A stretch of 64,000 nt of DNA, taken from Cliona cf. orientalis. Lineage: Eukaryota; Porifera; Demospongiae; Clionaida; Clionaidae. Each line of letters starts with the position of its first letter. The stretch's first letter is position 1. The stretch lies in assembly GCA_963930775.1 (NCBI GenBank), contig OZ005697.1:3162001-3226000 (forward strand), read 5' to 3'. The notes beneath the pieces are model-generated. The model was not told the DNA's origin, made no database searches, and saw only the letters and a program-made list of their open reading frames with translations. Positions 5,661 to 52,537 of this stretch are shown here, piece after piece. The translations under genes were made by a program, and so were the position numbers.

Positions 5661-7911
5661 TGTGAAAACGAGAACGAAACGATAGCTGAACGGTACGGAC
5701 AAAAAGGTGACAAGCGTTCATTTGGTAGGTGAGAAACGTTCAGAGCGAGCATAGTGCGTATTAAGACAGCCTTAGTCGCTTGCTGCGCTGGCTTCTACGA
5801 TCGCTAGGCAGCTCTACTCAGCCGCTTGCTGGAAGCCAAGCCGATAGCTTCTTTAGCTCGAGGCGATCGCTCGAACTAATCGCTCGAAACGTACCTGACG
5901 ATCGATAAGACACAAAGATACAGCTTTCTTTCGATGTCTGCTACATTATCGAGTCCGTACGAGGGTTGCCTGTGCTTCTCCGTCGCTCACTCGCGCGCGC
6001 GTGCGCGTGTGCGTACCGCGGCTTAAGCGCTTACTGGGAGTACGCGTGCGCGTATGAATTTTGAACCTCAAAGCGATTCCAATTATAGCACGGGTATCAA
6101 CCGCTGTCAAACGAGAAGAACTGTGAACTGAACACTGAGGATAAAAGAGACCGCTTTTCGAGCAGAATGTATTGTTTTACTGAACGTGGAAGTAAAAGAA
6201 ACCATCTATTACTCTCATCTCCAATCTACGACACTAGCTAGTATAAAGCTAGGATTACTGACAAGGTGAAGAAGCCCCCAGTGACTCGTGACACTATGAC
6301 TTACCGTGAGCGTGTGCGACAGGCGATTCAACTGTCAACAGGTGAGCCAGGCATGCTAATATCATGAAGAGGGCATAGATTACTCTTACATGCATGTATT
6401 GCAGACTGTGTTTTAGTGCTATTAAATTTTACAATACTCTATTGTACATGTACATGTAGGACCAGCTTACTTCGTAGTCAAATTCAGTATTGATGACACA
6501 ATTTCAATGATTCCAAGAAAGAACATTGTTGGTACAACAGTACCTGATGTTGACGACTGCTGTGAAGTGAAGTGGAGTAGCGGAGAGGTCCTCATGGCTA
6601 CTATATTAGCTGCTGGTAAGTGTGTACAAGTGGTTATTTTATGTGTGTGTGCATGTACATGTACTGATGCTACAATACATGTACATGTTATACAGGTGAT
6701 CTATCATCAATGCGGCAGGAAGAAGAGAAGGCTTTGTGCAAATATCTAAATGATGAGTCTGCTGAAGATGACAAAGAAGGTGGCCAAGAAGCTAGTGAAC
6801 CTTCTGAAAAGAATTGTCATGATAAAGAGAATGCTAGTAATGGCAGTGCTGTGCGGAAGAGAGGGAGAAAAAGGAAGGCTCTAAAGGAAGTCCAGGTAAG
6901 ACCATCAAAATGATATGGTTGTATATTATTGTGTCTAATTAATTATCTTGATCACCAGGCAAAGAAGCCAGCTACTAAGAAGAAGAAGAAAGATGAAAAG
7001 AAGTTCACATTTGAGCTTTGAGCAGCTGCAAAGGGACTGTCTCCTCCAAAACTTCCATCTACCCCAACTACTACAGTTGATGAACGACCTGAGGTGACCA
7101 TGGACATCACTGAATCACCTCTCATACAACATCCTTCTCCGAAGGTAATTACGCATGTACATGGGCTAGGCTACAGTTTAATACATGTATAACTGCTGTA
7201 ATGTACATACTCTTACAATTAGAGCAACCTGTTGCAGCTTGGAGCAGCTGCAAAGGAACTCTCTCCTCCAAAATTTCAATCTACCCCAACTACTACAGTT
7301 GGTGAACGAGCTCAAGTGACAATGGACATCACTGAATCACCTCCAGCTGCAAAGGAACTCTCTCCTCCAAAACTTCAATCTACCCCAACTACTACAGTTG
7401 GTGAACAAGCTCAAGTGACCATGGACATCACTGAATCACCTCTCATGCAACCTCCTTCTCCGAAGGTAAGTACACATGTACATGGGCTAGGCTACTGTTT
7501 AATACATCCATTGTGTATAACTGCTGTAATGTACAAACTCTTATTATTACTGTTGCAGCTTGGAGCAGCTGCAAAGGAACTTTCTCCTCCAAAACTTCAA
7601 TCTACGCCAACTACAAGTGCTAAAGTGGCTATGGACATCACTGAGTCGCATCTACTATCCAGTAACAATAGTACCAGCAGTTCGAGTGATGAAGGTGTCA
7701 TACAACATCCTTCTCCGAAGGTAAGTACACATGTACATGGGCTAGGCTACCGCTTATACATCCATTATATATAACTGCTATAATGATGAAGAATACTGTG
7801 TGCCTGGTAACTTTTATGGGGTGCTACATATGCATGTGCTTGTATCTTTTTTCATGGTTTAGCTGTCCCCACAGTACTGTACAGGTACATGTATATGTAC
7901 ATATGCTTATT

Positions 7912-8451
7912 AACCCTCGCCGCAAAGCGTAGGCGGAGGGTTACTGCAATTGTTTGGCGATTTTCGTCCGTTTGTCCGTCCATCCGTCCGTCCGTATGGT
8001 AAGGGTCGTCTGAGAGAAAGTGCGCATCTGAGGATTACCAGGCATCAAGGAAGAGTGGTCACGTTAAGTCCTGCCCAGTGGTATAATAGTGTGCAGCTGT
8101 GGTTGCCATTCTGTGCCTTGCTGGTCAGTTGTCAATGCAGTGACAGTGTAAACAGGCAGTGGCTCTCAAGTGCATAATTGAGTTCAAGTAGTCACAGAGG
8201 CTTTCAGTTATTATAGGGACATAGGCAGGTGCCTTCCCCCTAGCCTATATCATGCACTGACTCTGAAGAAAACTGGAGTACCTCAGGTGCAGGGTATGTA
8301 TATAGTATTGAACTAGATACACACTACCATATTATGGTAGTATGTATCTAGTTCAATACTCCTTATATTGAGCAGGCATACACACTGAGATATGCTAGCT
8401 ACTATAGATCTATATGTGCATGAGTCATGCATGCGTGTAGCGGTGAGGGTT
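7912..8451. mobile_element. MITE-like insertion in BEN gene intron 6 (AACCCTC ends)
   Basis: Left end is AACCCTCGCCGCAAAGCG and right end is the reverse complement of AACCCTCACCGCTACACGC. It includes a GTCC-rich simple repeat near 7965-7996. The exact edges and target duplication are unclear. It explains the unusually long sixth intron (about 800 bp). Confidence 0.5.
8304..8360. repeat. Near-perfect 57-bp hairpin
   Basis: Two 28-nt arms (starting AGTATTGAACTAGATACA) pair with one mismatch around a single central base. It lies within the AACCCTC-ended insertion in the BEN gene intron. Confidence 0.85.
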
Positions 8452-9760
8452 TTGCACTCCTGTGCATTCATTATTAGAGCAACTTGTTTCGTGAAATATT
8501 ATTAATGTTAATTTCTTTATCTAGAACAAGATTGTCATTAAAGTAGATAGTCTAACATCAGCAGCTAATTCAAGAGATGCTGGAGATAAGGTGTGTATGC
8601 ACATAATATTATGGGAGTTTTACCTGCCATGTACATGTACACTATTTTAACAATGTATTATAATGTATGTACAGATCACCAGTCAGCTGGAATACTTCAT
8701 GCAGTCTATTACATCAGCTGTAAAGCTGATGGACACAAGGCTGGTGCATGTCAACACAAAGCTCACAGAAATTGCAAAGTGATAGGAGGTGATGGACATG
8801 TCCCTGAAACTTCTTTACGAGTCAGTGAGAAGGATATCAGTGCTGGCTCTTGCGTCTGAACTTCCATCTGCATACCACAGGTGTGATGACACCCCATGGT
8901 GGATTGCCGAGTCGCTCATGATGGAGCAGATGAAGCAAAATGCTCAATCATCAAAAGGGCAAAAATCTGGTATATCAGCATCAAGCTACATACAGACTCC
9001 AGTAAAGCCTCCACCCACTCTCACAGCACCTGAAACTCCTGGTGACCAGTCATATGTACAGCCCCCATCCACATTCACTCCATTAGCAGCATCTGGTGAC
9101 CAGCAACTCCTGCACCTCCCACCTACTCCTACTCCTACTCCTTCGGTACGTGCAACTTTCAGTGACCAGCAGTCCATGCAACCCCCACCCACTCCCCCTG
9201 CAATTGGAACTTCTGGTGACCAGCAGCGTCCACCACCCCCTCCCTCCACTCCTACGACCAACAACCTACAAACTACACCACAGTTTTTAAGTGCCGAAAA
9301 TCTTATAGCTATCCGCACAGCCTCTGTATCACGAAGAAGTTTTGCAGCAAACATTAACCGTAAACTCCTCAGCGAAGAGGAGAGGATGACAAGCAATGTT
9401 AGCGGGACAAAAGGAAAGAATGAACTAGATCCTGTCAAAGTTGCCTTTATCAAATGAGTAACATTTCAGCAATATCGCCTGAAGGGAAATGAGAGGGAGA
9501 AGAAATCCTGGAGCGACTGTATCTTATTAATAGATGAAGCTAACGGACGACTTAACCAGAACAAACACTAACACCTACATACATGTAGTGTAAACACCTA
9601 CATACATGTAGTGTAAACACCATGCATTACATAATATTACATTATTATTATGCGCAGTATTGTTACACGTATATTTTAACACAACAATGTAATAAGATTG
9701 CAAAATTCAGTTTAAATAACGTTATGTAGAATAATATTACGACATGGTGCAGTGTGAATG

Positions 9761-10961
9761 CTAACACCCAGAAGGTCCACCATTCTCTTCAATGACTTTT
9801 GGAATAACCTTCTTTAAGTGTCCAATGTACTTCTGGCAAACTGCAGGTGTCAGCGTCAACCAAAATTTCTTGATCCCGTCTTTTAGTTCTTGAAGATTCT
9901 TCGGCTTGACATTAGTTCATAGATAGTTCTTCATCGATCCCCAAACATTTTCAATGGGGTTTAGGTCTGGACTCGATACCGGGGTCTTCCACCAATTGAT
10001 ATTCTTTTCTTGTAAATAGTTCTGAGCCCATCGACTCGTATGTTTAGGATCGTTATCTTGCTGAAAGCGATGGCTAGTTGGATAGTGACCTTCGATAAAA
10101 GGAACTAGTGCTCCATCTAAAATGTCAGTGTAACGCGTAGCATTCATAATTCCACTAAAAATAACCACCTGGGTAGCGCCTCGAGTGGCAATTCCACCCC
10201 AAACGTGTACTTTTAGAGGGTATTTTGGTTTCCCACAAAGGCAAGATGGCTGCCCTACCTTGTGGTAGCACGTTTTTCGGTGGCTCTCCAGTTGAACAGA
10301 GCTTTCATCCGAGAATATCACATCCTTCAGATCTAGATCATTTTGTTCCACTCCAGTGTTTCATACAGAGGGTGGGGTGCCCTGGGATTTCCCATCCCTT
10401 ACTCAGATTTCCCCCCTCAAACTTTCTGACTCTACCATATACTTTTGTATTAGTTTCCCACCCCAATGGCATCAGGTTCTCCATCTACTTATCATAAAAT
10501 CAGTGATTCTGTATGAAACACTGCACTCGCTGTTGGCACCACAGCAGCCTTTTTTGTTTGTTAGCCTCCTGAATAAGCGCACAATACTGGGTCTTCTTGG
10601 AAATCCATCCAAGGTGTCTATGGGCTCGTTTGATTGTGCTTGTTGAGACTTGGATTTCAGGATATTTGGCTGTGAATAGCGAGAAAAACTGCCCCAAAGT
10701 GAGTTCATTGTTCACCTTCATGGTCTCATCAACAAACTGATAGTGATCATGTCCAAGGAGGCTTGATCTTGGCTTTCGTTTCAGATCGACGACCAAACCA
10801 GTACTGTTGAACTTTTTGAGAAGAGCAAACAAAGAGACCTTTGATACCGATACAGTAACTCCTTCTTCAACGAGTCTTGATTGGATCTCTGATACTCGGT
10901 AGCCATTTCTTCGCATGATAATGACCTTGCTTCTCGTCTCAAGGCTTAGCCTTCCCATCAT
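9761..10961 (-). pseudogene. Tc1-type (DD34E) transposase, split by a MITE, one nonsense codon
   Basis: Starts at ATG 10961 with an N-terminal helix-turn-helix region (RLSLETRSKVIIMRRNGYR). The catalytic part has FSDES, QDNDPKHTSR and SPDLNPIENVW, with 34 residues between the second D and the E, the Tc1 spacing. A 170-bp MITE (10354-10523) interrupts the frame. Removing it with one 5-bp duplication rejoins the frame exactly (valine, then EQNDLDLKD). A TGA at 9917-9919 falls where the relative at 22.7 kb has arginine, probably a CGA to TGA change; the frame then continues to the natural stop at 9761. The gene is convergent with the BEN gene, whose end lies about 190 bp away. Tc1 transposases cut and paste their own DNA at TA sites; this copy should be inactive. 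Confidence 0.9.
10354..10523. mobile_element. 170-bp MITE with 5-bp duplication (CACTC) inside the Tc1 transposase
   Basis: Ends are CAGTGTTTCATACAGA and its exact complement (16 bp), flanked by CACTC at 10349-10353 and 10524-10528. The CAGTG end fits hAT-type termini. Its edges are fixed by restoration of the host reading frame. Confidence 0.92.
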
Positions 10962-11224
10962 TCTCGATCTCTAGCTCTGACTTCAACACCTTCAAACTTC
11001 AGATTTAGCTCACGTGGTAGCACACGCCCGCACCATGCCCATACGATACGAGGATCGATCACGTAATACGTAATCATGGTAGCCCGCGCACACGTGCACA
11101 TGCTCCACCCGCGCGAGTTACACGCGAGCGAGGGTTAAGTTGCATGTGATCTGTACTGTATATGAACATGATCAATATCGGAATGATAATAATTATTATT
11201 GTATGATTGAAATAATATTATTAT

Positions 11225-13620
11225 TATGACTTCGTGATCAGCAAAAGAGGGATAGTTGGAACGAATACAAGAAAGATTGGCATGATAGTAGACATTCTGT
11301 GGACGACTTAGTCGAGTAGGATTAGATGCATCACGATACGGTTTCCTTTCTTCATGGCATATAATGAAGTTCAAAGGGGGGGGGGGGTCTGAAGGAGATC
11401 CATCAACCTTTCGAGAAAATTCCCTGTTGTAACCTCTGCATTTCTTGATACGATTATTTAAAAGTTTTATGAGAAATGGACTTGATTCATCATGTGCAGA
11501 TGACACTTGTGGTGGTAACTGAAATTGTGATCCATAGGCTATAGTTGTAGCCATACATCCCTTGCATTTCATAAGGGCTCGAGGGACAAAGGAACTCTGA
11601 TCCATACCATGGGGTTGAAGGAAAAGGACAATGGGCAGTTGGAATAAAACGTTTGAGAAGTGCATCCTACAGTTTTATCGCCACCAATACTACTTTTACT
11701 AGATGTGATGGATGATCATTGGCCATAGCCGCTAGTACTGCCAACAGTAGTGGTTATTGATCTAATTTCTGATCCAAAGAGCAAACATTGCCTAGACGGT
11801 TTTTGAAAGTTGTAACTGGAACTTTGTGAAGATCACTTCGTCGTTTTCTGGGTCCACCTGATTTCGTACCAGCTTTTCGCCGCTCACATGATATGTAATG
11901 TAACCAAGTTCTTGGTTCAACATTCTGTGCCATTTGACTCCATCCACTTGATAGTGTGAGAGCTCAGATGATAGAGAGTATTCACCTGCACCATAGATGG
12001 CCTTGTCAGCCTCTGAAAGTTGGGATTCAACAAGCTTCTGTAGCTTCTGGACAAATGCTGGCCAAGAATTCTTTTTGAATCCAGTCCAGTGTTTCACTAC
12101 ACTATTTGAACTCTCGTTTGGGTTATTGGTGAATTTCACCGGAGGTGATTCAAGTTGAGCACGTTCACGAACGGGTTTAATCATATGACAATGAAAAACA
12201 TCTGCCTGGGTTTTCAGAAACCATTTATGGAATCCAGGAGAAAGTTTCTCCCACCATTGATAGAGACGACCTAGGCTTACATCGAGTGCTTCTTCCGAGT
12301 CACAATCCACTAGTCCAGTGTTGAATACCTGTCCTTGATTTCCAAAAATGTCATCGAGTACTTCTTTCTTAACTGCAGAGGATACTCCTTTCAAGAGCTC
12401 TTCAATATTATTCCTTTTGTGAATAAAACATCTCAGGCTAACTGCAGTGGGAAAGCAGGATTCTAATGCGGATACAAGAGCTGCTTCACCATCAGTGCCA
12501 TATGCCTTCAAATCACGCAAACGTGGTTAGAATTTGAGAAGGCTTGAAAAAAGGACTGATAACCTTGAATTCGACGCTCCATGTGAATGAATGCGGGCCC
12601 AAGAAAAATGGGTGGGTTGTTAGTACGGCAATTACACAGGGAAGTGTTTTGAGAGTCACATAGAAATCTCCCAGTTCAAATGTTGCATCAACTCCAAATA
12701 CAGAAAACTGAGTTGGCTGACAGCAGTATGTTACAATAATATTGTCGAGTTGCTGTTTAGAAGCTAGTATTGCACAAGGTGTGGATCCAATTTGTACTTC
12801 CTTGAGAAATCCTCGCTCTTCCATAGCCTGATGCTCTTTCAGAAGAGATAGCAGGTCAAGTATCTCACCTTTACCCTGCCAACTCATTTTTCACACTCTT
12901 ACAAGCATTGTACATCTGTGACTTGTTACAGACATGGATTTACAGTCATGAATACCACTCACAGCTTCAAAGACGTCAATGTACGCCACACTTGCAGTCA
13001 CTACTTTACATTTCTCTTTAATTGCTTGAAGCGTGCTTGGCTGAGTGCGGTAGTATGATCATTCTTTACGCTTGGAATTTCCATGTGATTTAAGATGCAC
13101 TGGAACTTTTTTACCACCTTGAAAGAAATATTGCATTACCGCTCGAGGCTGTGTCACACCCTTGTTGTCAATAACAGTGGTAATGATGCGTCGTAATTCT
13201 GGAGTTGCTTGGTGTGTTCCATACTGCCGACAGATTGTAATGATGTTACGTTTATCGATGTCAGGGGTCACCTTGGGAATATGCTTTAGAGACTGTATTA
13301 CACCTTGCTTCCATTTCAGCTCATACATCCGACGAGGCATTGATGTCACCCACACACCATTGTCATCTGCTGCAAGATCCTTGAGGCTAACGACGCAAAA
13401 GTTTGAACACCAGTAGGTTTCTGTGTGCACACTTTTAACTTCGGATCCTCCTCATACAGCATGCTTATGAGCTCATGTGCAGTGTATCCTAAACGTGGTG
13501 ATCCATACACAGGAACGTTTGGACCAAGCATTGCCTGTAATTCACCAACTTCACTGTCAGCATCACTAGTACACCCATCGTCACTACAAGGATATGACAT
13601 TTCATCATACACAATCATAA
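11225..13620 (-). pseudogene. MULE-like transposase pseudogene
   Basis: The gene reads leftward. An N-terminal region (about 13620-13060) is followed by a core at 12890-11792 with GVDATFELGDFYVT, YGTDGEAAL and NPNESSNSVVK. These resemble the D, D and E motifs of Mutator-like (MULE) transposases and of a family of related animal proteins. The C-terminal part (11665-11225) has the Cys/His-poor tail with a KCRGYNREF-type segment. Breaks: a frameshift near 13400, TGA at 13059-13061, another stop just before 12887, and two frameshifts around 12600-12520. It could alternatively be a domesticated-type protein family of unknown function; the MULE assignment rests on motifs only. Terminal repeats were not found. 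The downstream end abuts the presumed Tc1 element edge near 11159. Confidence 0.6.
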
Positions 13621-19103: not shown

Positions 19104-19549
19104 AACACTGAGCTCAAGTAGCTAAAACTTGGAACAAATTCTTTTCATTATTCACAATAATATTATAATATTATACAGTAATAATAATTGTCGCCGCCCT
19201 CGAATAGTTGCCGCTAGTTTCAGCAGAGGGAAAAAATTAGTCGCCGCGGCGTCTACTCAAGGAAATACGGTATATCTGACGGGCAGTCAAGCCAAAGGTG
19301 AAGAAAGAACTGATAGATGGAATACATCATTTTTGGGTAACAGTAGACCAAGCAAAGTGTGAAAAATACATGGGATATTTGTGAAAAGTGATCCCAAGCG
19401 TGATACAGAGCTCTGCAGGTTACTTGTCAAAGTGAATAGGAAATAGAAAGTGTGTAGTTATGTAAACTGGTAAACCACACATTGCCGTAGGGTTTGCACC
19501 TGTCCAGGATGTGTCTCACAATAATTAAAAAGGCGCGCGTTTGTACTTA

Positions 19550-20117
19550 CAGTAGCAGTCAAAAAAAGGTGACATTTCCATTCCGTTCCGCCCCGTCTAG
19601 ACACTGTCGCACCGTTTGTGCTACCGTACTGTTTCCGTTTTGTATGCACACGTGTACAATTAGTAATTGGGCGTGGTCTTTTGATGTGCAAAAAAATGAA
19701 TGGCCAGCTTGTTCACTCGTCGACTAGAATCGATAGTTTTCTACTGCTACAGTCTTCTAAACTGTCCTGGGGCAGTTCACTACTGCCGCTGTTTGATATT
19801 GAGCGAGTTCTGCGATCGAGGCTCGATTGGATTTGAAGTCTGCCATTCAACAATCAATTGACCTCACATTGCCAATTGACTCTGATTGCTTCCAAAGGTG
19901 ATTGCTTGGATAGAGCAATGCTTCTTTTGGCTTTTTTTTTAGGCTCTTGAGGCATCATTTTCGTGCTAGCTACGATTGGAATAGTCAACTGCATGTTCCG
20001 TTGCATCAGCCTCCTACCGTCCTGTTTCCATTCTTGTGTATGGGGAACAGCCGTTTTACTTCCATCTCGACGGGGCAGAACAGTAAGAAAACATCACTGT
20101 TTTTTTTACCGCTACTG
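19550..20117. mobile_element. 568-bp MITE with TA duplication
   Basis: Ends are CAGTAGCAGTCAAAAAAAGG and the complement of CAGTAGCGGTAAAAAAAACAG, flanked by TA at 19548-19549 and 20118-20119. A second inverted segment (GCCCCGTC) lies 40-50 bp inside each end. The termini resemble those of the Tc1/BEN elements (CAGTAGCGGTCAATAAAA), so it may be a non-autonomous relative. Confidence 0.8.
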
Positions 20118-20252
20118 TAGCTAGTACTGTACTATCCTGAATTATGTGACTGAGTGCATGCTTTGAGTGGCCTACCGTTCATCTACCTACCTATTTTCGT
20201 GAGGATCTACTTTCGAAAGTTGAGTGTGCTGAGATTCTAATCAGTATTCATC

Positions 20253-21394: not shown

Positions 21395-21487
21395 GTCACA
21401 TCTCTAGCCCGCTTCAGTAGTGTTGTCACAGTACTTCTCTTTGCTTGAACCGGGTGGTGTGATGTGAAGGAGAGGTACCTGTTGGTA
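21395..21487 (-). pseudogene. Penelope reverse transcriptase, downstream piece
   Basis: The reverse strand encodes NRYLSFTSHHPVQAKRSTV, the segment that follows the VYRK-HT motif in Penelope-like reverse transcriptases. It joins in frame to the piece at 28520-28935 once the 7,032-bp element and one TA are removed. Beyond about 21395 the similarity fades. Confidence 0.8.
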
Positions 21488-21737
21488 CAGTTGTGGTCAA
21501 TAAAAAGTTAGCGTTTCGTATTCGTAAAACGATCGTTCAACGACGCGCTATTCACGGTTTTGCAACCTTGCGTATTTACAACGTATTATGCGTAGTACGC
21601 AAACATTGCATACTTCAGGGAGAAAGTATGAAAGAACTTGTAGTTGGGCAGAGCCTAACTAATCGTTGTGACGATCTAGCAAGTTTGAGCGCTCGAGCCA
21701 AGCTAGCTACATAGAAGTGTGAAAAGCGATAACAGCG

Positions 21738-22897
21738 ATGGTTTATAGCTCGTACAAGTTACAGCGGATTCTCTACCACTAGCTAAGAGGTCACAGAGCA
21801 CCAACAATCAGCCGACTTTTGCGCAAGGAGAATTTGAAGGCAAGCCGTGTTGGAATAGCGAAGTTTCTCAAGAAGTACAGGGAGACAGGTTGCATAGGTC
21901 GAAGGCCTGGATCTGGACGTCCATCAAAGATTACCGCGGAGATAAAGGCCATTGTGAACGCGCAGATGAGACAAGACAACGAAACAATTGCTACGCAGCT
22001 TCACACGCTTCCGGTTAGCCGTGGCTATCGCATCTCTCTGAGGACGATCCTTCAGTGTCGCACTTCGCTTGGCTGGACCTTTCGTGGCAGCAGCTACTGC
22101 CAGCTCATTCGTACGCAGAACAAAGAGAAGAGACTGGTATGGGCCCAACGCTACAGAACGTACAAGGACGAAGATTTTGAAGAGGTCATCTTTACTGATG
22201 AATGTACAGTACAACTTGAGACTCACCGGCGTTTTTGCTGTAGGAAGCGTGGTGAACCTCCGAGGCCCAAACCAAAGTATGATATACACATAATTATAGT
22301 ATCATACTTTTACTTTTGTTTGCATGTCACTAGCCTAGCCTCAACACTTTTGAGAAGAAATATTAATAATATTACTTGCTCTACGATTCCAATTAATGCC
22401 CCCTCTCTTGCTCCACACATACACACAGAGCCAAACACCCAGTCAAGGTACATGTCTGGGCAGGCATTAGTCTTCGTGGACGGACAGGCATATGCATTGT
22501 TGATGGTATTATGGAAGCCACTGTTTACACCCAGATTCTTGATAAGACGCTTGTACCATTTATCGAGGATGTTTATCCAACTTCACACAAGTTCATGGCC
22601 GACAATGATCCGAAGCACACATCACGCCATGCACAGCGATATCTCGAAGAGAAACAGATCAACTGGTGGCGTACCCCAGCTGAGTCGCCGGACCTTAACC
22701 CTATCGAAAATATGTGGCACGAGTTGAAGGAGTACATCAGGAGAGAGGTGAAGCCAAAGACGAAGGAGGAACTGATTGACGGAATAGAGGCATTTTGGTC
22801 TACAGTAGACATTGACAAGTGTAGAAAGTATATTAGGCATTTACGTAAGGTCATTCCTAAAGTGATAGAGGTACAAGGTGCTGCAACAGGATACTGA
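21738..22897 (+). pseudogene. Tc1-type (DD34E) transposase with one intron and one stop
   Basis: The ATG at 21738 opens an N-terminal helix-turn-helix region; TAG at 21780-21782 breaks it, and the same frame continues through SRLLRKENLKASRVGIAKFL and GRRPGSGRPSK. Catalytic motifs are FTDEC, MADNDPKHTS and SPDLNPIENMW with 34 residues between the second D and E. A 152-bp intron, 22277-22428 (GTATGA...CACAG), must be removed to join PKPK to KHPVKVHVWAG. The coding start is 250 bp from the left terminal repeat. Apart from the early TAG, the protein looks complete (about 335 residues, normal for Tc1). It is close to the 9761-10961 copy, which has no intron at this position. Confidence 0.9.
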
Positions 22898-23516
22898 TTT
22901 TATCTATAATACAGGTGTATTAGTAATATTAAAATAATTTTATTGTTGCATATCAAAATTGATACTGATATCACATTTTATTTTTATTAATAATATTTCT
23001 TGTTGCATCAAAATCGATTGTACAATGTCATGGTATAGTGGTTAGAATGAATATACTAGATATTAAATTTTACTTTGCATGAATCAAAGAGTGGTTGGCA
23101 GTGGTGGTACGGTACTACTGTGAGGTTCTCGTTCCAGTTAGCGATTAGTGACAAGCAGACTGACGGGCTCTCTTGCAACCCTGTCCAATCGACTCTGTAC
23201 AAGTAACCCATGTGGGCTCAAACTCCAGGGGATTGCGCCAGTACTGGGGTAAGAGAGTAAATATGGTCTGCTTCAGCTCCTAAATAGGTAGGCCATGAAA
23301 CTCTCTACATCCTGAAACAGTGCACGCAGCCATAACCTTTTCTCCGAAGAAAGACTCGTGCGAGCTTGGTTGTCAGGGTTTCAATCTTGCTTTCCGTGTG
23401 TAAGTGTCGATATTTAGCAAGGATAATGGAATTTTCACTCAACTTTTCCTTGCTGATTGAAGATGATGGTAGGGTCTTGGCATTTTTTTTTTTTTTTTTT
23501 TTCAAGGCGACCAGAA
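22898..23516. other. AT-rich spacer between transposase and family C array
   Basis: No supported gene. A run of T (about 23484-23502) precedes the first C unit. Confidence 0.5.
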
Positions 23517-24685
23517 CACTAAGCAGAAAAAAAATTGTTCGAAAACCGCCACATAGTTGAGCTGAATGCATAGTAGAGCCATACAATGCAAGCAGGCAGC
23601 TTATACATCAATTTTGATCAAAGTGGGTAATGGTCGTCACGTTAATGTGTGCGTGGGCGGAAAACATTGCAAATGCATGGCTTCCTATACAAACATATGG
23701 GGTAACTTCAAAGGGGCCGTAACTCTAATTCTAAGGTGTGAATCAAAATTCCCCAGGGTCAAATCTCTAGTTTCGACCCATTCTGCGTGCCCATGTAAAA
23801 GTTACCTCCCCAAGTGCTCCCAAACCCCCCAAACATTATAAATCTTTTTTTTTTTTCTACTTAGTGTATAACAAGGCGACCAGAACACTAAGCAGAAAAA
23901 AAAATTGTCCAAAAACCACCACATAATCGAGCTGGGTGCATAGTGGAACCATACAATGCAAGCAGGCATCCTAAATTTCAATTTTGTCAAAAAGTTGGTA
24001 AAGGTCGTCACGTTTATGTGCGCGCGTGGCCCCGCCCCTCACGTAGCGCGTGGGCGGAAACATTGCAAACGCATGGCTTCCCTGTACAAACATATGGGGA
24101 AACTTCAAAGGGCCGTAACTTTGATTCTAAGGCGTGAATCAAAATTCCTGAAGGTCAAATCTCTGCATTTGATCCATTCTGCGCGCCGGTACAAAAATTA
24201 TGTCCCCAGGTGCTCCCAATTCCCCCCTGAATTAATTAATTAAAGTTTTGTTTTTTTTTCTACTTAGTGTTTTAGTGTTTAATTTTTCAAGGCGACCAGA
24301 ACACTAAGCAGAAAAAAAATTATCCAAAAACCACCATATAATGGAGCTGGGTGCATAGTGGAGCCATACAATGCAAGCAGGCAGCCTAAATTTCAATTTT
24401 GTCAAAAAAGTTGGTAAAGGTCGTCACGTTTATGTGCGCGCGTGGCCCCGCCCCTCACGTAGCGCGTGGGCGGAAACATTGCAAACACATGGCTTCCCTG
24501 TACAAACATATGGGGAAACTTCAAAGGGCCGTAACTTTGATTCTAAGGCGTGAATCAAAATTTTTTCATGTCAAATCTCATGTTTTGACCCATTCTGCGT
24601 GCCGGTGTAAAAATTATCTCCCCAAGTGCTCCCAATTCCTCCAAACATTTTTCGCGCAGGAAATCTTTTTTTTTCTACTTAGTGT
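23517..24685 (-). repeat. Tandem array of three family C units
   Basis: Units at about 23517-23865, 23887-24271 and 24300-24685, all reversed relative to those at 46-49 kb. Each runs from CACTAAGCAGAAAAAAA to CTACTTAGTG with a GGCGACCAGAA linker. Two of them share an open frame of about 95 codons (FMCARGPAPHVARGRKHCK), see findings. Confidence 0.8.
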
Positions 24686-24786
24686 TTAATTTTTTTCTTA
24701 TAATAATTTAGCCGGATTGGCATGGATACACAAATAGCCAGAGGCTAATCTCAAGTGCACCCAGTGGACAATAACTACATAGATTA

Positions 24787-27700
24787 TCATGAATCAGTTT
24801 TCTTAAATTTACTTCTAGTTCTGTTAGCAACAGGGTTTGGCATGATCAGTTTCCATATGACATTTCTTCGGTGTATTGATACCCCAGGGACTCCCTCTCG
24901 AACACTGTACTGCACCTTCCTACTGCAGGATACATCCAGCTCAGAACCACTGGTGTCAGACGACTCAGAGTTATCAGAGGCATGATGGAACCTTCTCTTC
25001 CTATGAGACCGCTTCACAACTGGAGTCCATTCCTCGTCACCATTCTTTGTATACTTCACACCAGGAATGCGGTCTTTCATTTCATATGTCACAGATTCAC
25101 AGGTACTCAAATCCACCACATCAGGTTGTTTGAATTGATTGGCCACCAAAACTGAGGTGTCAGCAGTAGCAGAACATTTTTCTTCAGTATCTGGAAGGGG
25201 CATAGTTGGTTGAAGAGTAGCTGAAGTAGAACTGTTGGCACTGGCCTCATCTTTAGCATGATGGGAGATAGCAGAGTGATGAGCATTATCTGGAGTTACA
25301 GATTCTGTCTGAGATGCAGCAAAACTAGTGTTTCCCAAACCATGGTGGGCCACTGTTACTTCTTGAGAACCCTCATGTGGTTGAGTCTTAGCCTCTCTTC
25401 TTCTCTTGCTCTTCTTTCTCTTCTTAACCACTGCCTTAGTTGCCTTGACATCAACCTCACCAAGATTCAGGGCTGGCCAGAAGAAGGTGACTGAGAAGCC
25501 ACCAGTAGACTGCCTTGCTGTCCACTGAGCATCCCCTAGCTGGAGACCTTTGCCTTGCATGCATATACACACAGGCAGTGGGATACCAGACTTCTGTAGC
25601 AGAGTGTAAGGGCTCTCAAGAACAGACACTAAAATTCCAGCCATTTTGTTTTTTTTTTTTTTGGCATTCTTCTTCGGCTTGATTGGAATGCATCTTGGTG
25701 GCTGATTGGAGGCTGGTTGATTGTGAGGTTGTTGCAGTGGCGTGTCCAAGGGGGGGCTCCGGGTGCTCGAGCACCCCCCTCAGCTCTGGCACAACAGCTA
25801 GATCAGTTGCTCAGTGGCAACTGTTTATGCTGATATTAAATTAACAACTGGTAGCCAGAACCAACAATGAACTTACTATCTTCTAAAATTCGCTCTCTAA
25901 ACAACTCTTTCTCGTCGCTACTTGGCCAAAACAGCCTTCTTTGTCAGCCAGCTACCTTCAAGAACGTGTTAGCGAGGGGCGTGGTCAACGTTTTGGGGGC
26001 GTGGCTTAAAATTTTGCGCACCTCCCTCCTTCAAATCCTGGACACGCCACTGTGTTGGTACGGCTGATGAGGACCATGGTGCTCTTGGTCTGTGTTATAT
26101 GTATGTTGGGGCTCTGGGCGGTAAGGCAGCTGAGGATGACAGTAAGATGGTTGAGGATCATGATAGTAAGATGGATGAGGATTGCACTGGTAAGGCTGGC
26201 TAGAGTCAGGACTGCAGAAATGCTGAGGATCAGAACGATGAGGGAGCTGAGAAGTGGGACGATAGGATGGCTGATAATCAGAATGATAGGATACCTGAGA
26301 ATCTGTACGGTAAGAGAGCTATGGATCGTAACGGTAAGAGCGCTGAGAATCAGGACAGTAAGATGGCTGAGGATTGACATGGTAGGTGTGCTGAGGAGAC
26401 TTTGAGGTGTTGTAATCATCATAATTATCATACATGTTATCGTAGTAAATGTCATCATCATTCCCTGAACACTTGCTCACTAGATGCTTGTGGCAGCGCT
26501 GGTGGCGAGTGACCTCCTTTCGTTTGTTGCTCTTGCCCATCTCTGATGAACTGCTCGATAGCTGCCAATCTCACCAAGATCATCTCCTGATTTCCTTTCA
26601 AATTTTCGACCTCCATTTCCAATAGCAATGAATCTAGAATGAATAAGAATATTGATAAGCATGTAAACATTCACATAGTGTGTATATGTATATACTGTAT
26701 ATGTACATGTACATGTACATGTACAATCATATAAAAATTATGAACAGCTAATCTGTATACACATGTACACTAAATGCACCTGAATCATAATCATTTCCTC
26801 CCTTGTCTCCACCACCAGCTCCTACACCATCGTCTTCCTCTTCATTGTTGTCACTGTCAATAACAATAGGCTTGCTTCTCACCGTCTCATCTTCTGCCTC
26901 CACGTCACCAACCTCTTTAGCCACCTTCACTATTGGCGAATAGTGAATGTGCATGTGTAAGTTCAATAGTGCACACTACTAAAACGAAACAATGACCAGC
27001 GAGTAAATTCCTAAGCACAAAATGTATTATTAGTGTATTCACATGTACCTGAATCAGTCGCTTCATTGCCTCCAGTCTCATTGATCTTCACAGGACTACT
27101 CCTACCAGTCTCACCCACGTGTCGCCCCATCGTCACCTGTCTCATCAGTCGCCTTTGCTGTCACAGGTCTTATCCTATCACCGCTCTTGTGTGTAGACCC
27201 ATTGCCATCTCCTTGCTTTCTTGCAACTGCACCACCATGTTGTGTCACCCTCAGTACATTTGCAAGAGCTAAAGGGAGCAGTATCCAGTGTGTATCATAC
27301 ACGTAAGTACAATTTACAAGATAAGTTTGCCTTTGGGCTTCTTCTTGGACTGAGAAATCGGAGTTGAGCTTTTCTTCCCACCTACAGGTAGCAATACACA
27401 ATCGAGTCAACATAGTACTAGTACCGACACACTATTTAAACACCACTTACTTGATTCTTGGGGTGAATTTTCTTCCCCTTCTCTCTCCGGCAAACTTTCT
27501 GTGGTGGGTTATCACTGGCTTTGTCTTCATTTCTTGGTGGATCATTGCTGGCTTGGGGTGTATTTTCCTTTCCCTTCTTCTGTCCTCGACAAACTTTCTT
27601 TGGGGGGTTATCACTGGCTTTGTCTTCATTTGTGGGTGGATCATTGCTGGCTTGGGGTGTATTTTCCTTTCCCTTCATCTGTCTTCGGCAAACTTTCTTT

Positions 27701-28263
27701 GGGGGAGGAGGGCTATCACTAGCTTCGTCTTCCATTGTAGGTGGATCATCACTGGCTTTCTCTTTGATTGAAGGACTGTCGCTGGCTTTATCAGTAAACG
27801 GGAACCAGTCGTCATCCAGGAACCGAGCCTCTAATACTTGCATAGAATCCTTGGATCCTACCAGATAGAATATTTATAATATAACCTATGCTATAAGTTA
27901 GAATTAACTTTTTTTTCACCTGATGCAGCAACCTTCCCAGAAAAAAGCTTGGATCTCTGCTTCACTTGACATTCTGTTTCCACGTCCAAGGTGTCAAAGT
28001 CGCTTCCAACAATGCTGCTTCTGATCACTACAGATACACTATCTTCCTCCGGCCAAAAGATCAGATAGTAGGGCGCTGAGAGGAACAAACGCACTCTAAA
28101 AACTGACGCTAGCTATGCATTGATACAGATACACGCGCGCTTCAAATCCTGTCTAAAATATTAGCTCGTTGTTCTTACCAGATTTCTTTTCTTTGAAGGC
28201 CTTCATAGTAGCCCTCAGACTTGGCTTATTCTTCTTCAAATTCGGAGTATCCTTCTTAGACAT
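24787..28263 (-). pseudogene. BEN-family-type gene inside the Tc1 element (BEN domain not found)
   Basis: Exons on the reverse strand: 28263-28179, 28093-27920, 27857-27451, about 27386-27326, about 27262-27050, about 26926-26780, then 26633 leftward. Exons 1-3 match the first BEN gene in content and intron phase: a basic start, a domain ending RSKLFSGKVAASG, then SMQVLEARFLDDDW. Exon 3 holds tandem repeats around ASDNPPKKVCR. Later exons are acidic, with IVIDSDNNEEEDD like a SUMO-interacting motif, then a helical segment (MEVENLKGNQEMILVRLA), then Tyr/Pro/Gln repeats (PQPSY). A frameshift near 26460 and TAG near 26318 break it. After a MITE the frame continues into a Lys-rich stretch and an unrecognised domain (LPVCICMQGKGLQLGD, GGFSVTFFWPA), ending at 24787 after NRTRSKFKK. 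The C-terminal part may belong to another element. Confidence 0.65.
25735..26052. mobile_element. hAT-like MITE with 5-bp duplication (TGTTG) in the BEN-type gene
   Basis: Ends are CAGTGGCGTGTCCA and the complement of CAGTGGCGTGTCCAGG, flanked by TGTTG at 25730-25734 and 26053-26057. Removing it with one TGTTG rejoins the interrupted Gln/Pro-rich reading frame. The interior matches 3184-3526. Confidence 0.9.
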
Positions 28264-28519
28264 CGTCAAGTCGCCACGTGTAGCTTTCTCCTTCTAGAAT
28301 CTTCGCACCAAAATAGCGAACACGAAACGCTGCCGTATATACGATCGAAATATTGTTCGAATTTATCGTATACACGAGTGAAAAACCGTACGAAATTAAC
28401 ATTGCGTTTCCGTTTTTACGTTCACGCGCAGGAATCTAGCGTGTACATTTACTACCAATCGTCGCGTTTTACGGTCGTACTACGAATACGAAACGCTAAT
28501 TTTTTATTGACCGCTACTG

Positions 28520-28935
28520 TATGTATTTTCTTCCTGTACACTGTAGTCTTGATCTTTTTGTTATCATCCTTCATCAGTAGGACATCCAGGAAGGGTAGTT
28601 GGTTGTTTATTTCTTGCTCCACTGTGAACTGGATTGAAGGGTTGATAGTGTTCAGATGTTTCAATGTTTCCTCAACTGTTGACTTCTTCAGGAAACAAAA
28701 GGTGTTGTCCACGTATCTCCTCCAGAATATGATAGGTTGTGGCGATGTGGTGAGGGCTAGTTCCTTGATGTGTTCCATGAAGATGTTGGCTACCACTGGG
28801 GACACAGGAGATCCCATCGCCGTTCCATCAGTTTGTTTATAGAAGCTGCCGTTATAGAGGAAGTAGGTTGTTCAAAGACAGGTGTGCAGGAGATTGGTGA
28901 TTTGTTATGGTGTTAGAGGAGTCCTGTCCTCCTTT
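28520..28935 (-). pseudogene. Penelope-like reverse transcriptase fragment
   Basis: Reverse strand: TYFLYNGSFYKQTDGTAMGS, PVSPVVANIFMEH, WRRYVDNTF, QLPFLDVLL and VYRKKIHT, the order of Penelope RT motifs 3-6. The usual YVDD catalytic pair reads YVDN here. Stops occur upstream near 28878 and 28915. The frame is cut after HT by the 7,032-bp element and resumes at 21487. The N-terminal RT part and the GIY-YIG endonuclease are missing, so this was an old truncated copy before the insertion. Confidence 0.88.
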
Positions 28936-29334: not shown

Positions 29335-30203
29335 TCATTGACTATGATGCATGAAAAAGCTGCAAGAACTATTGTTTCTATCTATATCAGTAACCTGTGC
29401 CTCTTTTTCCATTGCCTTCATTTCAGCCTTCACCTTTGAGAAAGCCTCTTCAATTGGGTTGTAATCTGGAGAGTACAGGGGAGGAAATGCACAATTGCTC
29501 CTACTTCCAGAATCATTTGCACATTAACTTCATTGTGATGAATGCTGCAGTTATTGAGAATAACGACACTGTTTGGATTCACACCATCATATGGCATTAA
29601 CTGAGGAAGCAAAACTTCTCTACAAAGTCACAGTAAATGTCTCCATCTACAGCTCCTTCCATTATCTTGAGGTCAAGCATACCACACACTGACATTAATG
29701 CAATTTCTGAGACACGCTTTCCACGCACCATTAGCTTATGAGATACCGCAGGCTTGCCTCTTTAACTGTAGCCATACTTTCTGAGGCGATTTCTTTTTCG
29801 AGCCTGTCTCATCCATGAAAATAAGCATTTTACGCTTATACATGGCAATATCACAGGAAAACCTCGCTCTCGCTTCTTTGCTATGAGCTTCAGTTTCTGC
29901 CCACTAAAATCAACTCTCTGGAAGCAACGGCAAATTGCAGATGGACTAACGTCAGTGCCCGTTTCATACAACTCTTGTTGAATCTCTCTCATACATTCCA
30001 AGATTCATGAAAACACAATGGAGTGAGTGTAGCTCAAGTGGAGGAGTGAACTTCTGAGAGACACTTCTAGAATAGTGTTTCTTGTCCACAGATCCAAAAT
30101 TTTGGAAGAGCTCTACCACTCTCCACACAGTGGACAAGTCAACATTCAAGTTAGCAGCAATAGTTTGGTATTTACACCCAAGAACCTCTCTCTGCCATAC
30201 CAT
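29335..30203 (-). pseudogene. IS630/Tc1-like transposase, decayed
   Basis: Reverse strand: an N-terminal helix-turn-helix (MVWQREVLGCKYQTIAANLN, then STVWRVVELF), a second winged-helix region (LYETGTDVSPSAICR), then the catalytic part. FMDETGS holds the first Asp, in a shifted frame near 29800. The second motif reads ILNNCSIHH where the family has DNCSIHH, so that catalytic residue is changed. SPDYNPIEEAFSK holds the Glu, after another frameshift near 29480. A stop (TAA) near 29762 and further shifts near 29610 add to the damage. Natural stop at 29335. I found no terminal repeats for it. Confidence 0.8.
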
Positions 30204-31079
30204 GTGCCATTGAAGATCGTTGCTGTAAGCGATTTTTCATCCTGGTTCGCATGAGCATGCCATTTTCATGCGCACGGTACCGCCATTTTGAAATGATTGT
30301 AATGCGCATCGCATTATTTGAATTTTGATCGAGGTGATATTCCTTGCAACATTCGGGCAAACCCCTTGTATGTCTTGACTGCTTATTAAAATGTGCTGCA
30401 GTACAGTGAGCGTCGTCATGTTTGTGTACATTAGTGCATCATGAATATCAAATTAGTCACCACTACTAGGCAAACCACACTACCTATTGCTAGTTACCTC
30501 TGACAAGTAACTTGCAAAGCTCTGTAGAACTAGAAGGTTCAGCAACAGAATACTAGGTTTTTAACAGTACTTACTACTATTAATTATCATGGTTACCGTA
30601 TAGAAATTGTAGTCAATAACTTTAGTAACTGATATTAACTTTGAGTACAACGAAAATATTATAAGGAGATACCTAATTAATAGGTTTGAATATAAAAGTA
30701 GGCATGATATACATGTGTACGCATAGGTACAAAATAATAATTTTATTAGAGGAGTTACCACGAAGTCTCTTGCACAGCCTCCCCCAGTTGAGGTGGTTGT
30801 AATACTCCAAAGTGGTTCAAAGTTGTGAGGTGATCTCCAATACTCAGGAAATTGAGCGAAAAGTGTTTGTTTCAGTTACTGAAGCTCTACAATTGGAAGC
30901 CCAGGGAGACCCCGATCACCGCTTACAGTATACCCTCTCCAACTCGGCCTCGCCAAAATATGCCTCTCTCGCCTGTTGGAGATCGGAGCTTTGGATACGT
31001 CACGATAACCTCACTAGCTGACTTGAGTTTTTGTTTGTTTATTACTTACAAAGGGTTTTCTATTTTCGTTCAACAATCG
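30204..31079. other. Intergenic region without recognised genes
   Basis: AT-rich sequence with short frames on both strands that lack motifs. Confidence 0.5.
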
Positions 31080-38818: not shown

Positions 38819-40665
38819 ATGAGCGACCCACCAGTAACACGAGAGTCTGATCCTCCATCATTCACCCCTGAGCAACTGGCGTGGCTGCGTGGTGCCTTTC
38901 AGCCCCCGCCTCCGTCCACCGCCGACGAAACATTACCTTCATCGGGCTCCTCCGCCAGCACTGTGACCATGACAGCCCCAACCAGTGCCGTGTCAGGTGA
39001 GTCTCGCTAACGCTATCTCTTCTTAACCCAGGCCCGCGGCCTTTCTTAACTTCGGCCGGCTGGACGCTTCGGCCTCGCCCCTCCTTTCTGGTTAAATCAC
39101 ATTCGGCGCACATGCGCCATATGCGCGCACGCGTCACAAGCACACAATCACCCCTTAGCTACATCAGGGGACACTCCCCCAATCAGCTATCACCATAAAT
39201 GGAATATCACTAACAATATCTATAGTCCATTACCTACTGCTTGCATAACAACGACATTAGGAACATACAATACCACCATATATTTTCTATAGCTATACTC
39301 CATCCCTCGCCAAGACACTGCACACATTGTTAATATATCATCACAACCAGGCCAATAGGCACCCCAACATTATTATATCCCAAGCAAATAATACAACTAG
39401 TCCACGTGCTACCGGGGACGCCTGCCCATCACTACCTACCCACACACTGGCTGCTCCCTCACACTATTGGCCTGTCTCCACGCAGCCTAACCACATGCAC
39501 GGGAGTAACACGCCATGTGTACAATACGTAGCCCACGCGCTACCCAGGTACGCTCACCCCGAAAGTCAATACACTCTCCAATGCCATCACCCGCCACATA
39601 ATACGCTCATCCCACCCATCACAGGCATACATGAACGCATATACAATTAATTCAAATCATGGGCACGCTATCCCAAGATACCTCCGCAGCCACCTGGCGC
39701 TGGCACTGAGAACACTACAGTGACATTCCTTCCTCTGTGCAGGTCACTCCTCAGGACCCACGTCCACACTTACCTCCGTTCATACATTGCCACTCTTCTC
39801 CACATCCCATACTATCCCCTCGGGATTAGAAATCCTTGCAGCTGCAGCAGCGGCAGCATCCCCCCCAATGCCAAAGGGCCCCACAACCTCATCTTCCTCC
39901 GCTGCTCTATCCATCTCCACCCCAGGCCCATTCAATCCAACTGCATCCTTGCCTACAAAACTGGTGAAGAAAATCCTTGACCTAGAATTCGTGGAGATGG
40001 CAGATATCACAACTGATGAACCATCCCCTAATGAACCAGGTCGCCCACCGGCACCTGCTCGAATTCCCATTACAAACATATCACAATGGGTCGAACGATT
40101 GTCGATGATGGCCGCGATCATCTGTACACGGTTCCCTCACAAGGCACCCGAACTATTGGCCTATCAGTCAACCATTGTCAAAGCAGAAAGGAACTACGAA
40201 GGTACTCAGTGGGTCACCTACGACCGACGGTACCGCCACGATGCCCTGGCTCGCAAAGACCTCAACTGGTCCATGCCAGACCCTCGGTTGTATAATGAAG
40301 CCTTCACAGGGAGGGCTAGAGCCATCCCCCGATGTTCATACTGCCTCGATGACGATCACCATGTCAATAATTGCCCAAAAAACCCCAACCGCCTCCTTTT
40401 GGGATATTTCCCGCCCATGGGTACCTGGCCAATGCCAACTCCTCCGCAACCTATGCCAATTCCTCCGCCCCGCAAGGCCTGTCAGCGCTTTAATGAAGGA
40501 AGATGCAACAAGCAGCAGCGCTGCAAATATCTCCATATTTGCACTTCATGTGGGGGAACCCACCCAGCCATCCAATGTGCTCAAAGGCAACCACCAGGCC
40601 GCAGCCGATCACCTCCACGCAGGAACCCCACTGCATATCCTGGCCACCCTGCCCCTCGCTTCTAA
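38819..40665 (+). CDS. DIRS-type ORF1 (gag-like), two exons
   Basis: Exon 1 is 38819-38996, from ATG to a GTGAGT donor. Exon 2 begins at 39743 after CTGTGCAG and the phase fits (Gly split 1+2). The protein starts with a Pro-rich stretch (FTPEQLAWLRGAFQPPPP), then Ala/Pro/Ser linker, a helical core, and a C-terminal zinc-binding part with CSYCLDDDHHVNNCP, CKYLHICTSC and CAQR. An Arg/Ser tail (RSRSPPRR) ends the protein. The spliced product would be about 367 residues without internal stops. It acts with the downstream reverse transcriptase and recombinase as the particle protein of a DIRS-like retroelement. The intron is inferred from sites and phase only. Confidence 0.7.
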
Positions 40666-40934
40666 AACCAGCAACACCTATTCATAATTAGCTAAATACC
40701 CTCCAATCATCATCATTCAGAATCATAATAGTGATCACTTATACTACCCAACTCTAATGTGCTGCATTATAATAATATTGCTTATTTTCATGTTTACTTG
40801 GGTTATTATGTTGACTTGGGTTAAGTTCAATAATACTTTATAATAATTCTCCACCCATGGGTGTGACGGCCGTCAAAGGCCACCATAAAACATAAAACAT
40901 CTCATTTCCTCTCCCTTACCCTACAGGCTGGTCA

Positions 40935-42648
40935 TTGCTATACAGCTACACAGCCGACTTGCTATGTCTTAAATTTTGCAAGCCATCTCACCCACATTCA
41001 TGCCAAGATTTACATTCAATTTCTACTCCTCTGAACCCAGATACCTGGGCGGTAGCATTGTCATCACATCCTGATAGGGCTTTTGCCCAATATATCTGCA
41101 ATGGCCTTCGCATGGGCTTTAAGATTGGCTTTCAGCATGGCTCTTCTCTAAGATCAACCTCTGCTAATATGCTTTCAGCTAATGCCCACCCGGGAGTAGT
41201 GACCGATTATATCCAGAAAGAGCTCAGCCTGGGCCGAATGCTAGGCCCCTTTCAATCCACTGATCATCTCCCACCACTTCATTTCAATAGATTTGGAGTT
41301 ATCCCAAAGGGTCACAACACGGGGAAATGGAGACTGATCACAGATCTCTCCTTCCCACAAGGGCACAGTGTAAATGACGAGATCAACCCATCCCTCTGTT
41401 CGCTAGCATACACAACTGTGGATGACATTGCCGCGGTTGTTGCGCAACTGGGCAAGGGAGCCCTGCTCGCCAAGGTGGATATTGAATCAGCCTACCGATT
41501 AATCCCAGTACATCCACAGGACCGCCCACTGCAAGCAGTTCGGTGGGACGGCAATATCTACATCGACTCAATGCTCCCCTTCGGCCTTTGCTCAGCACCA
41601 AAAATTTTCAACGCTGTGGCGGATGCACTACACTGGACCGGTATCTTCACCAATCAGGAATCCCGCTGGTTTATCATTACCTTGATGATTTTGTCATCAT
41701 AGGCCTACCACATTCCTCACAATGTGCACAATCATTACACATCTTAGACAGAGTATGCTCCACTCTAAACATCCCAATGGCCAGCCATAAACGTGAAGGG
41801 CCATCCACATGCCTAACAATTCTCGGCATTGAAGTAGACACAGTATCGGGCCAGCTGCGCCTCCCAGCTGATAAGCTCACCGCCTCAGTGTCCTTCTGCA
41901 GGACTGGGGGGACAAGAAGGCATGTTCCCGCAAGGAACTTGAATCACTTATTGGTCTACTTAACCATGCCTGAAAAATAATTAGATCCCAGCCGCTAATC
42001 AGATTGAATTTGGGCTTCCGTTCTGATCTAGGTTGGTGGAACACGTTTATTGCAGAATGGAATGGCATCTCGTTTCTTGCTCCACCTACCTACCTGCCGC
42101 AGCTAGATCTCACAACTGACGCCTCAGGCTCGTGGGGATGCGGGGCATGGCACCACCGCTCGTGGTTTCAGCTGCAATGGGATAGCCGATCCCACACTTT
42201 ATCTATACCTGAAAAAGAACTTATCCCTATCATCCTTGCTGTAGCGACGTGGGGCAATGCGTGGGCTGGACACCACATTATTTGTCATTGTGATAACCAA
42301 GTAGTTGTGGCGTGCCTCCGTTCTAGGACAAGCAAAGTGCCGGGTATTATGCACCTGCTCCGCTGCTTAGTATTTATAGAAGCACGACAGGGTTGTTTTC
42401 TCCACCTGGTTTACATAGATACTAAAGCTAATCTCCTGGCAGATGCACTGTCACGTAATAATCTTCCTCTTTTCCTCTCAAAGGTTCCATATGCAAACCT
42501 ACAACCTACTGGATCTGCTTCTGGATCCACAGTCGGATTGGACCTCTCGGCGTTGGAACCTTCAATTCAACTCTATTTTCAAAACGGCCTAGCGCCATCT
42601 ACTCAAAAAACTTACAAGGCGGCTATGAAACGCTTTCATTCATTCTGA
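40935..42648 (+). pseudogene. DIRS-type reverse transcriptase and RNase H
   Basis: RT motifs include FNRFGVIPKGHNTGKWRLIT, LLAKVDIESAYR, LPFGLCSAPKIF and, after a frameshift near 41655, YHYLDDFVIIG. A TGA near 41969 and a further shift precede the RNase H part (LTTDASGSWGCGAWHH, PEKELIPIILA, NLLADALSR). The frame stops at about 42646. DIRS-type order RT-RH-recombinase is kept. An acceptor-like CCTACAG at 40919-40925 suggests the pol part may be reached by splicing from ORF1. Confidence 0.9.
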
Positions 42649-42689
42649 ATTCACTACAATGTAATACCACCTTTTCCTCTGTCTGAACA

Positions 42690-43520: not shown

Positions 43521-43596
43521 AACCCATCAACGAACAAGTCACAGTAACCATTATAAGACTGTGATAGCCAATAATAGTATGTATTACATGTACATT

Positions 43597-52530: not shown

Positions 52531-52537
52531 CGTCTCC

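Follow-up and report, generated by a model that had tools for sequence, protein, structure and literature searches.

The window analysed here, a stretch of 64,000 nucleotides from the sponge Cliona cf. orientalis (GenBank assembly GCA_963930775.1, contig OZ005697.1, positions 3,162,001 to 3,226,000 of the forward strand), contains a DNA transposon of about 7.0 kb (21486–28521) in which a Tc1-type transposase gene and a second, multi-exon gene ending in a BEN domain lie between the same terminal inverted repeats (TIRs). The left TIR (21486–21542, plus strand) and the right TIR (28465–28521, minus strand) are arms of 57 nt that are 86% complementary, with 37 of the 40 outermost nucleotides identical; the left arm starts and the right arm ends with the TA target site. 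Genome-wide, the left TIR has 17 matches, including both ends of this element. When the flanks are joined with a single TA, an open reverse transcriptase (RT) frame is obtained on the minus strand (...TTVYRKKIHT-NRYLSFTSHHPVQAKR...) and, because this host frame is restored once the element is left out, the limits of the element and its TA target site are correct. Both the TIRs with TA duplications and the exact rejoining of the RT frame (IHT followed by NRYLSF) had been described in a first-pass annotation of the window, and both were reproduced. The right flank matches the Pfam RVT_1 profile with an E-value of 3.5e-5, which is under the cut-off, and the name Penelope was given to the host RT by eye only.

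The transposase gene is located on the plus strand and is composed of two exons separated by a GT-AG intron (22277–22428). Exon 1 (21738–22276) encodes a helix-turn-helix region and the first catalytic aspartate, while exon 2 (22429–22897) provides the second aspartate and the glutamate and matches the Pfam DDE_3 profile (E 6e-17). The second aspartate and the glutamate are separated by 34 residues, the DD34E spacing of Tc1-type enzymes, in agreement with the spliced DD34E transposase proposed earlier. An intron-like gap occurs at the same position in 25 of the 31 other loci read, and the catalytic aspartate and glutamate are kept in all 31 near-full-length exon-2 matches among the loci read. 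In the window copy an in-frame TAG is found near the start (21780–21782).

The accessory gene converges on the transposase gene from the opposite end of the element. On the minus strand, exon 1 with the start codon (28179–28263, the spliced gene starting at 28263), exon 2 encoding a domain of predicted Tudor-like fold (27920–28075), exon 3 (27451–27857) and an exon encoding a coiled coil and a Pro/Tyr-rich region (26053–26633, with its frame disturbed in this copy) were recognized; a convergent multi-exon gene had been described in the first-pass annotation. The terminal exon had been placed at the open reading frame (ORF) 24787–25779; this assignment was ruled out, as the ORF is part of a repeat family dispersed over the genome (115 matches) and lies within a nested insertion. 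The true BEN domain was found at 23163–23472, tail-to-tail with the transposase; a frameshift and a stop interrupt it. A relative's BEN domain, used as the query, gave 90 genome matches, among them positions 23163–23363 of the window on the minus strand, which are 66% identical over residues 38–107 of the BEN domain of the other copy and contain one stop; from 23472 on, the beginning of the domain reads in another frame. The window element therefore does hold a BEN domain, broken and adjoining the 3' end of the transposase gene. Its exon 2 has 12 matches in the 217-Mb genome, 11 of which lie within 8 kb of a transposase of the same lineage, and is 27% identical to exon 2 of another BEN-type gene in the window (see below); exon 2 of a relative has 28 genome matches and that of the other window gene 21. 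The coiled coil is 70% identical to that of a copy at C4:2925023.

The element contains two nested insertions. The larger (approximately 23485–25662, minus strand) contains 2.5 tandem copies of a 416-bp repeat and the ORF of the dispersed family, with A-runs at both limits and AATGCC on either side. The smaller, of 318 bp (25735–26052), resembles a miniature inverted-repeat transposable element (MITE), with perfect 14-bp TIRs and TGTTG on either side. Together they account for approximately 2.5 of the 7.0 kb and, since this sequence was inserted later, the size of 7 kb is not a property of the element, whose Tc1-type assignment in the first-pass annotation stands. Among the TIR pairs listed in the genome survey are 14 other elements with both genes between TIRs; 13 of these are 4.0–5.6 kb long and one is 9.6 kb. 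Judged by its sequence, the window element is probably a degraded copy of this two-gene family.

In relatives with a readable last exon, a coiled coil and a proline-rich stretch are followed by BEN at the C-terminus; the accessory protein is Tudor-like at its N-terminus and combines this with the coiled coil and the terminal BEN domain. The PF10523 profile was matched at E <= 0.1 by nine of 12 picked members of the lineage (best 4.2e-8), and against the Pfam BEN profile the last exon alone gave E-values of 0.06 for one member and 1.5e-4 for another, just under the cut-off. A phmmer search of the PDB with a single BEN domain found no match, and a search with the BEN profile retrieved only BEND3, weakly (E 0.83 and 0.99). 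From the structural models, the C-terminal domain is predicted to have the BEN fold and the N-terminal domain to be a Tudor-type SH3-like barrel; the N-terminal domain did not match the Pfam Tudor profile. One scan of viral contigs for BEN domains gave two stretches fitting the pattern, neither of which was confirmed.

The extent of the family was surveyed in the 217-Mb genome, the only one covered, by combining the positions of matches to the TIR, the transposase, the BEN domain and the N-terminal domain. In the transposase search 150 of 352 candidates were scored and 150 of 152 matches were listed, the 52 best being the top of this list; the TIR search listed 100 of 110 matches, to which nine from other TIR searches were added. 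Six elements were read over their whole length, of which three have gaps (17, 152 and 650 bases), and all six begin and end with TA; the remainder were judged by coordinates.

Among the matches listed, 23 pairs of inward-facing TIRs lie less than 12 kb apart. A transposase is present in 15 of these, each of which contains a BEN domain as well. Many TIR pairs with both genes, the support that the first-pass annotation had asked for, were thus found, and the case that would have refuted it did not occur: none of the 15 listed transposase-bearing pairs carries the transposase without BEN. Their spans are 4.0–5.6 kb in 13 cases, 7.0 kb for the window element and 9.6 kb for one pair (C3:9142379–9151931), which also spans two transposases of other lineages and whose left end may belong elsewhere. 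The remaining eight pairs have neither gene in the match lists: six span 573–611 bp, one 1741 bp and one 10.3 kb. The 1741-bp copy (C4:2925023) keeps the transposase start, the coiled coil, exon 2 and ends like those of the window element; since it retains pieces of both genes, it is regarded as an internally deleted relative. The six pairs of 573–611 bp have the same end core as the family (for example C4:7930581–7931191, C3:3866150–3866760 and C10:5930267–5930877) and are probably non-autonomous derivatives.

The association extends to loci identified by their genes. The 52 best transposase matches have a BEN domain within 5 kb in 43 cases, an N-terminal domain within 8 kb in 30 and either of the two in 50, and, of the 79 BEN loci from the BEN-domain search, 63 have a lineage transposase tail-to-tail with them at a distance of up to 4 kb, where a fraction of approximately 0.001 would be expected at random. 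In a control search with DDE_3, in which 150 of 548 candidates were scored, the 150 other-lineage matches listed showed no overlap with those of the lineage; four have a BEN match within 5 kb, and all four of these BEN matches are already paired with a lineage transposase. The Pfam BEN profile itself has 25 genome matches over the cut-off, of which 22 are within 5 kb of a lineage transposase and three are not. At C1:23074194, C1:26154218, C1:24767295, C1:26581258 and C1:30043792, BEN matches of 30–35% identity have no lineage transposase nearby and are candidate host BEN genes. The orientation of the two genes varies: the accessory gene lies on the transposase strand, downstream, at C11:5515129–5517811, C2:7112074–7114817, C1:20313844–20316928, C1:36817356–36819903, C4:7935409–7937927, C13:2744209–2746419 and C11:7998510–8001261, and upstream at C4:4003935–4006567, C1:29347951–29350337, C1:37288940–37291350 and C14:6093989–6096417.

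The two genes have been copied together. Over 2942 bp, the copies at C2:7449562 and C4:5619367 show 99.93% identity, from the exact TIR start through the transposase and BEN, the match running to the end of the sequence read, and those at C14:4965542 and C9:8852404 are 98–99% identical from the accessory-side TIR through BEN, the match ending inside transposase exon 1. These pairs are read as recent two-gene transpositions, and, as the TIR is the exact starting point of both matches, a larger duplication is unlikely. Over longer times, pairwise distances for transposase exon 2 and BEN are correlated (r 0.885 for 22 loci, p 0.0001; r 0.63 for 13 well separated representatives, p 0.0001). In both genes replacement changes are fewer per site than silent changes: when six close pairs are pooled, transposase exon 2 has a ratio of replacement to silent rates (dN/dS) of 0.15, and BEN one of 0.37, with small numbers throughout and silent sites saturated for distant pairs. 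One pair supplies 19 of the 27 BEN replacements, apparently owing to an out-of-frame match start, and without it eight replacement and 13 silent changes remain. In an alignment of 12 open-frame BEN domains, hand-picked from 29 matches, 25 of 109 columns are invariant. Because the transposase and BEN diverged together, the accessory gene is an old, retained component of the whole transposase lineage and not a fresh capture. The first-pass annotation had suggested the capture of a BEN-type gene by a Tc1 element; the gene does lie between the element's own ends, but it was co-inherited rather than recently captured by the window copy.

The ends of the elements, analysed at the 44 TIR ends of the window and the other loci read, share two further features. 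A palindrome, ACGATCGT, is present with at most one mismatch just inside the TIR at 28 of the 44 ends, compared with 2% of shuffles, an excess that is explained in part by the common descent of the ends. The ends are also rich in CpG, their observed/expected ratio being 2.18 over the outermost 80 nt and 1.74 over the outermost 250 nt, versus 0.56–0.66 elsewhere (0.56 in the flanks and 0.65 in all sequence read).

The locus is best interpreted as a degraded copy of a two-gene Tc1/mariner lineage whose accessory protein would act as a helper and not as a passenger, a reading to which a probability of about 0.78 is given. Well preserved members have TIRs of approximately 40–60 nt at a TA site, a DD34E transposase gene with an intron (sometimes intronless) and a multi-exon Tudor-like/coiled-coil/BEN gene, usually tail-to-tail with the transposase; the sequences show that the two genes share the same ends, have been copied together and have diverged together. 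The accessory protein may oligomerize through its coiled coil, its BEN domain may bind the element's own ends, where many copies carry the palindrome, and its Tudor-like domain may contact chromatin. In this way, expression or transposition would be increased, insertion steered or host silencing countered. Most likely, the protein would tie the element ends to chromatin, aiding transposition or the escape from silencing.

A number of observations weigh against this interpretation. Two of the 52 best transposase matches have neither a BEN nor an N-terminal domain detected as a partner, 16 of the 79 BEN loci lack a tail-to-tail lineage transposase within 4 kb and, at least 11 loci have the accessory gene and the transposase on one strand, so that the arrangement is not fixed; at two same-strand loci a transposase of another lineage (C11:5513453 and C4:7933180) is tail-to-tail with the BEN domain. 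Foldseek searches with the models of both domains gave no match at E <= 0.001 (best 0.13 and 0.20). The palindrome, being shared by descent, may serve the transposase. Finally, 17% of CpG dinucleotides have decayed at the ends, versus 24% in the interior (Fisher p 0.003, with pairs that are not independent), and other positions change at 2.3–2.4%, a different measure that is far below the CpG decay at the ends. With CpG decay still strong there, it is not clear that the ends are protected from methylation, and the idea of simple methylation shielding was rejected.

The explanation that a single Tc1 copy picked up a host BEN gene, or sits beside one by chance or nesting, is scarcely credible and is refuted for the family. 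It could draw on the BEN domains found away from lineage transposases, namely the 16 loci mentioned above and the three of 25 Pfam matches with none within 5 kb, but the presence of both genes in 15 of 15 listed transposase-bearing TIR pairs, the partners found for 50 of the 52 best transposases, the co-divergence and the near-identical two-gene copies at different sites all speak against it. The accessory gene could instead travel with the transposon without benefiting it, as the stops and broken BEN frames in many copies and the higher dN/dS of BEN would suggest. Such neutral cargo is quite unlikely in view of the long co-divergence with BEN residues kept (the 25 invariant columns in the 12 picked members), the excess of silent over replacement BEN changes once the out-of-frame pair is excluded and the presence of the gene in nearly every member.

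Two views of what a helper might do were also considered. Harbinger and CACTA elements encode second proteins that act as transposition co-factors or target-site selectors. A comparable role, in which the accessory protein and the transposase would jointly bind the TIR palindrome, is a possible, if less than probable, explanation: it is in keeping with the palindrome at 28 of 44 ends, with a coiled coil suited to multimers and with the BEN domains of BANP and NACC1, described as crystallized on palindromic DNA (PMC11472053). On the other hand, Tc1/mariner elements are described as capable of autonomous transposition (PMC5704228), and the palindrome may belong to the transposase. By analogy with VANC of plant VANDAL elements, the protein might act mainly against silencing, stripping or blocking methylation at the element ends, a tentative proposal suggested by the Tudor-like and BEN architecture, by the CpG richness of the ends and by the slightly lower CpG decay there; however, the decay at the ends remains strong, so any shielding would be weak on an evolutionary timescale, and CpG richness may simply be how the ends are made. 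The co-factor or targeting role and the anti-silencing role were rated about equally likely, and neutral cargo less likely than either.

Other features of the window include a second BEN-type gene (5602–10970, plus strand), with exon 2 at approximately 6459–6620 and a BEN domain at approximately 9254–9568 that contains one stop and, read through it, matches Pfam BEN with E 0.0096, under the cut-off. This gene is tail-to-tail with a lineage transposase (9767–10225, minus strand, 63% identical) and is preceded, at 5602, by a TIR with the core of the family; no right end could be assigned to it with certainty. The inverted pair 5602–5659/31067–31124 (58 nt, 97% complementary, 25.4–25.5 kb apart) encloses the element reported here. 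An element of approximately 25.5 kb at 5602–31124 is not claimed, as the dispersed repeat forming the left flank is not continued in the right one; the pair may be two ends of different copies, and ends of the same core also bound the six pairs of 573–611 bp among the TIR matches listed. A BEN remnant lies at 30768–30932 (minus strand), and a MITE-like inverted pair of 572 bp with a similar TIR core at 19548–20119. An IS630-like transposase with a broken frame (29335–30254), an RT-bearing element (39724–43620), a Gypsy-like pol (52517–55816) and a pogo-like transposase (58536–60249) were recognized by eye, together with a MULE-like piece (11792–13451; Pfam E 0.004, under the cut-off).

Tc1/mariner elements, usually of 1–2.5 kb, are among the best-known transposon groups and are taught as minimal, consisting of two ends and one enzyme. 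The lineage described here shares with this group (IS630-Tc1-mariner, Tc1-type DD34E) the DDE_3 transposase, the 34-residue D–E spacing, the TIRs and the TA target site, and differs from it in the second multi-exon Tudor-like/coiled-coil/BEN gene, in the splicing of the transposase in most copies and in the span of 4.0–5.6 kb in 13 of the 15 TIR-bounded two-gene elements listed. A single gene within 1–2.5 kb is a usual but not strictly defining trait of the group, and a second gene is present in all 15 listed transposase-bearing TIR pairs. VANDAL elements are plant Mutator-like elements, and VANC is not known to be a BEN protein. To our knowledge, no Tudor-like N-terminus is present in the host BEN factors BANP, BEND3, Bsg25A and Insv. 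The Tudor domains of KDM4A/B/C, ARID4B and RBBP1 have 8–25% identity to the Tudor-like domain of the element, for which the binding of methylated lysine or arginine is putative. In principle, the closest parallels are KolobokP and VANDAL. KolobokP, as described by Kojima and Bao (2022; PMC9587614), is likewise a eukaryotic DDE transposon lineage with a stable non-transposase second gene, but it belongs to another superfamily, its second gene encodes a His-Me nuclease and it has long terminal direct repeats. VANDAL with VANC, in which the transposon's own protein is reported to act sequence-specifically on its DNA (Hosaka et al., 2017; PMC5735166), may serve as a model for the BEN protein. The BEN domains of BANP, BEND3, Bsg25A and Insv (PMC11472053) are 12–19% identical to that of the element in the alignments made, and BANP and BEND3 are reported to prefer unmethylated CpG (PMC11472053). 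No report of BEN genes in Tc1 or other DNA transposons was found in titles, the beginnings of abstracts and some passages of the literature, a scope that leaves most subscription journals and Repbase outside, and the lineage may be catalogued there. As far as this literature shows, a stable second gene is new to Tc1/mariner, making the lineage a two-gene variant; the novelty suggested in the first-pass annotation holds to that extent, for a lineage-wide component instead of a one-off capture.

In this genome, most recognizable BEN domains (22 of the 25 Pfam matches over the cut-off) adjoin Tc1 transposases of one lineage, and they are linked within one protein to a Tudor-like domain. It is a rather doubtful idea that DNA transposons are the native setting of BEN domains, that this lineage reads chromatin to choose when or where to move and that host BEN insulator and CpG-island factors descend from such helpers by domestication; other host DNA-binding domains are described as descending from transposon proteins (PMC10027918). 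A lineage that keeps a chromatin-type second gene through long divergence breaks the rule of the minimal transposon, provides a concrete system in which to study whether proteins that read host chromatin, or act against it, are encoded by DNA transposons and is a possible source of the BEN domain of host insulators and CpG-island factors.
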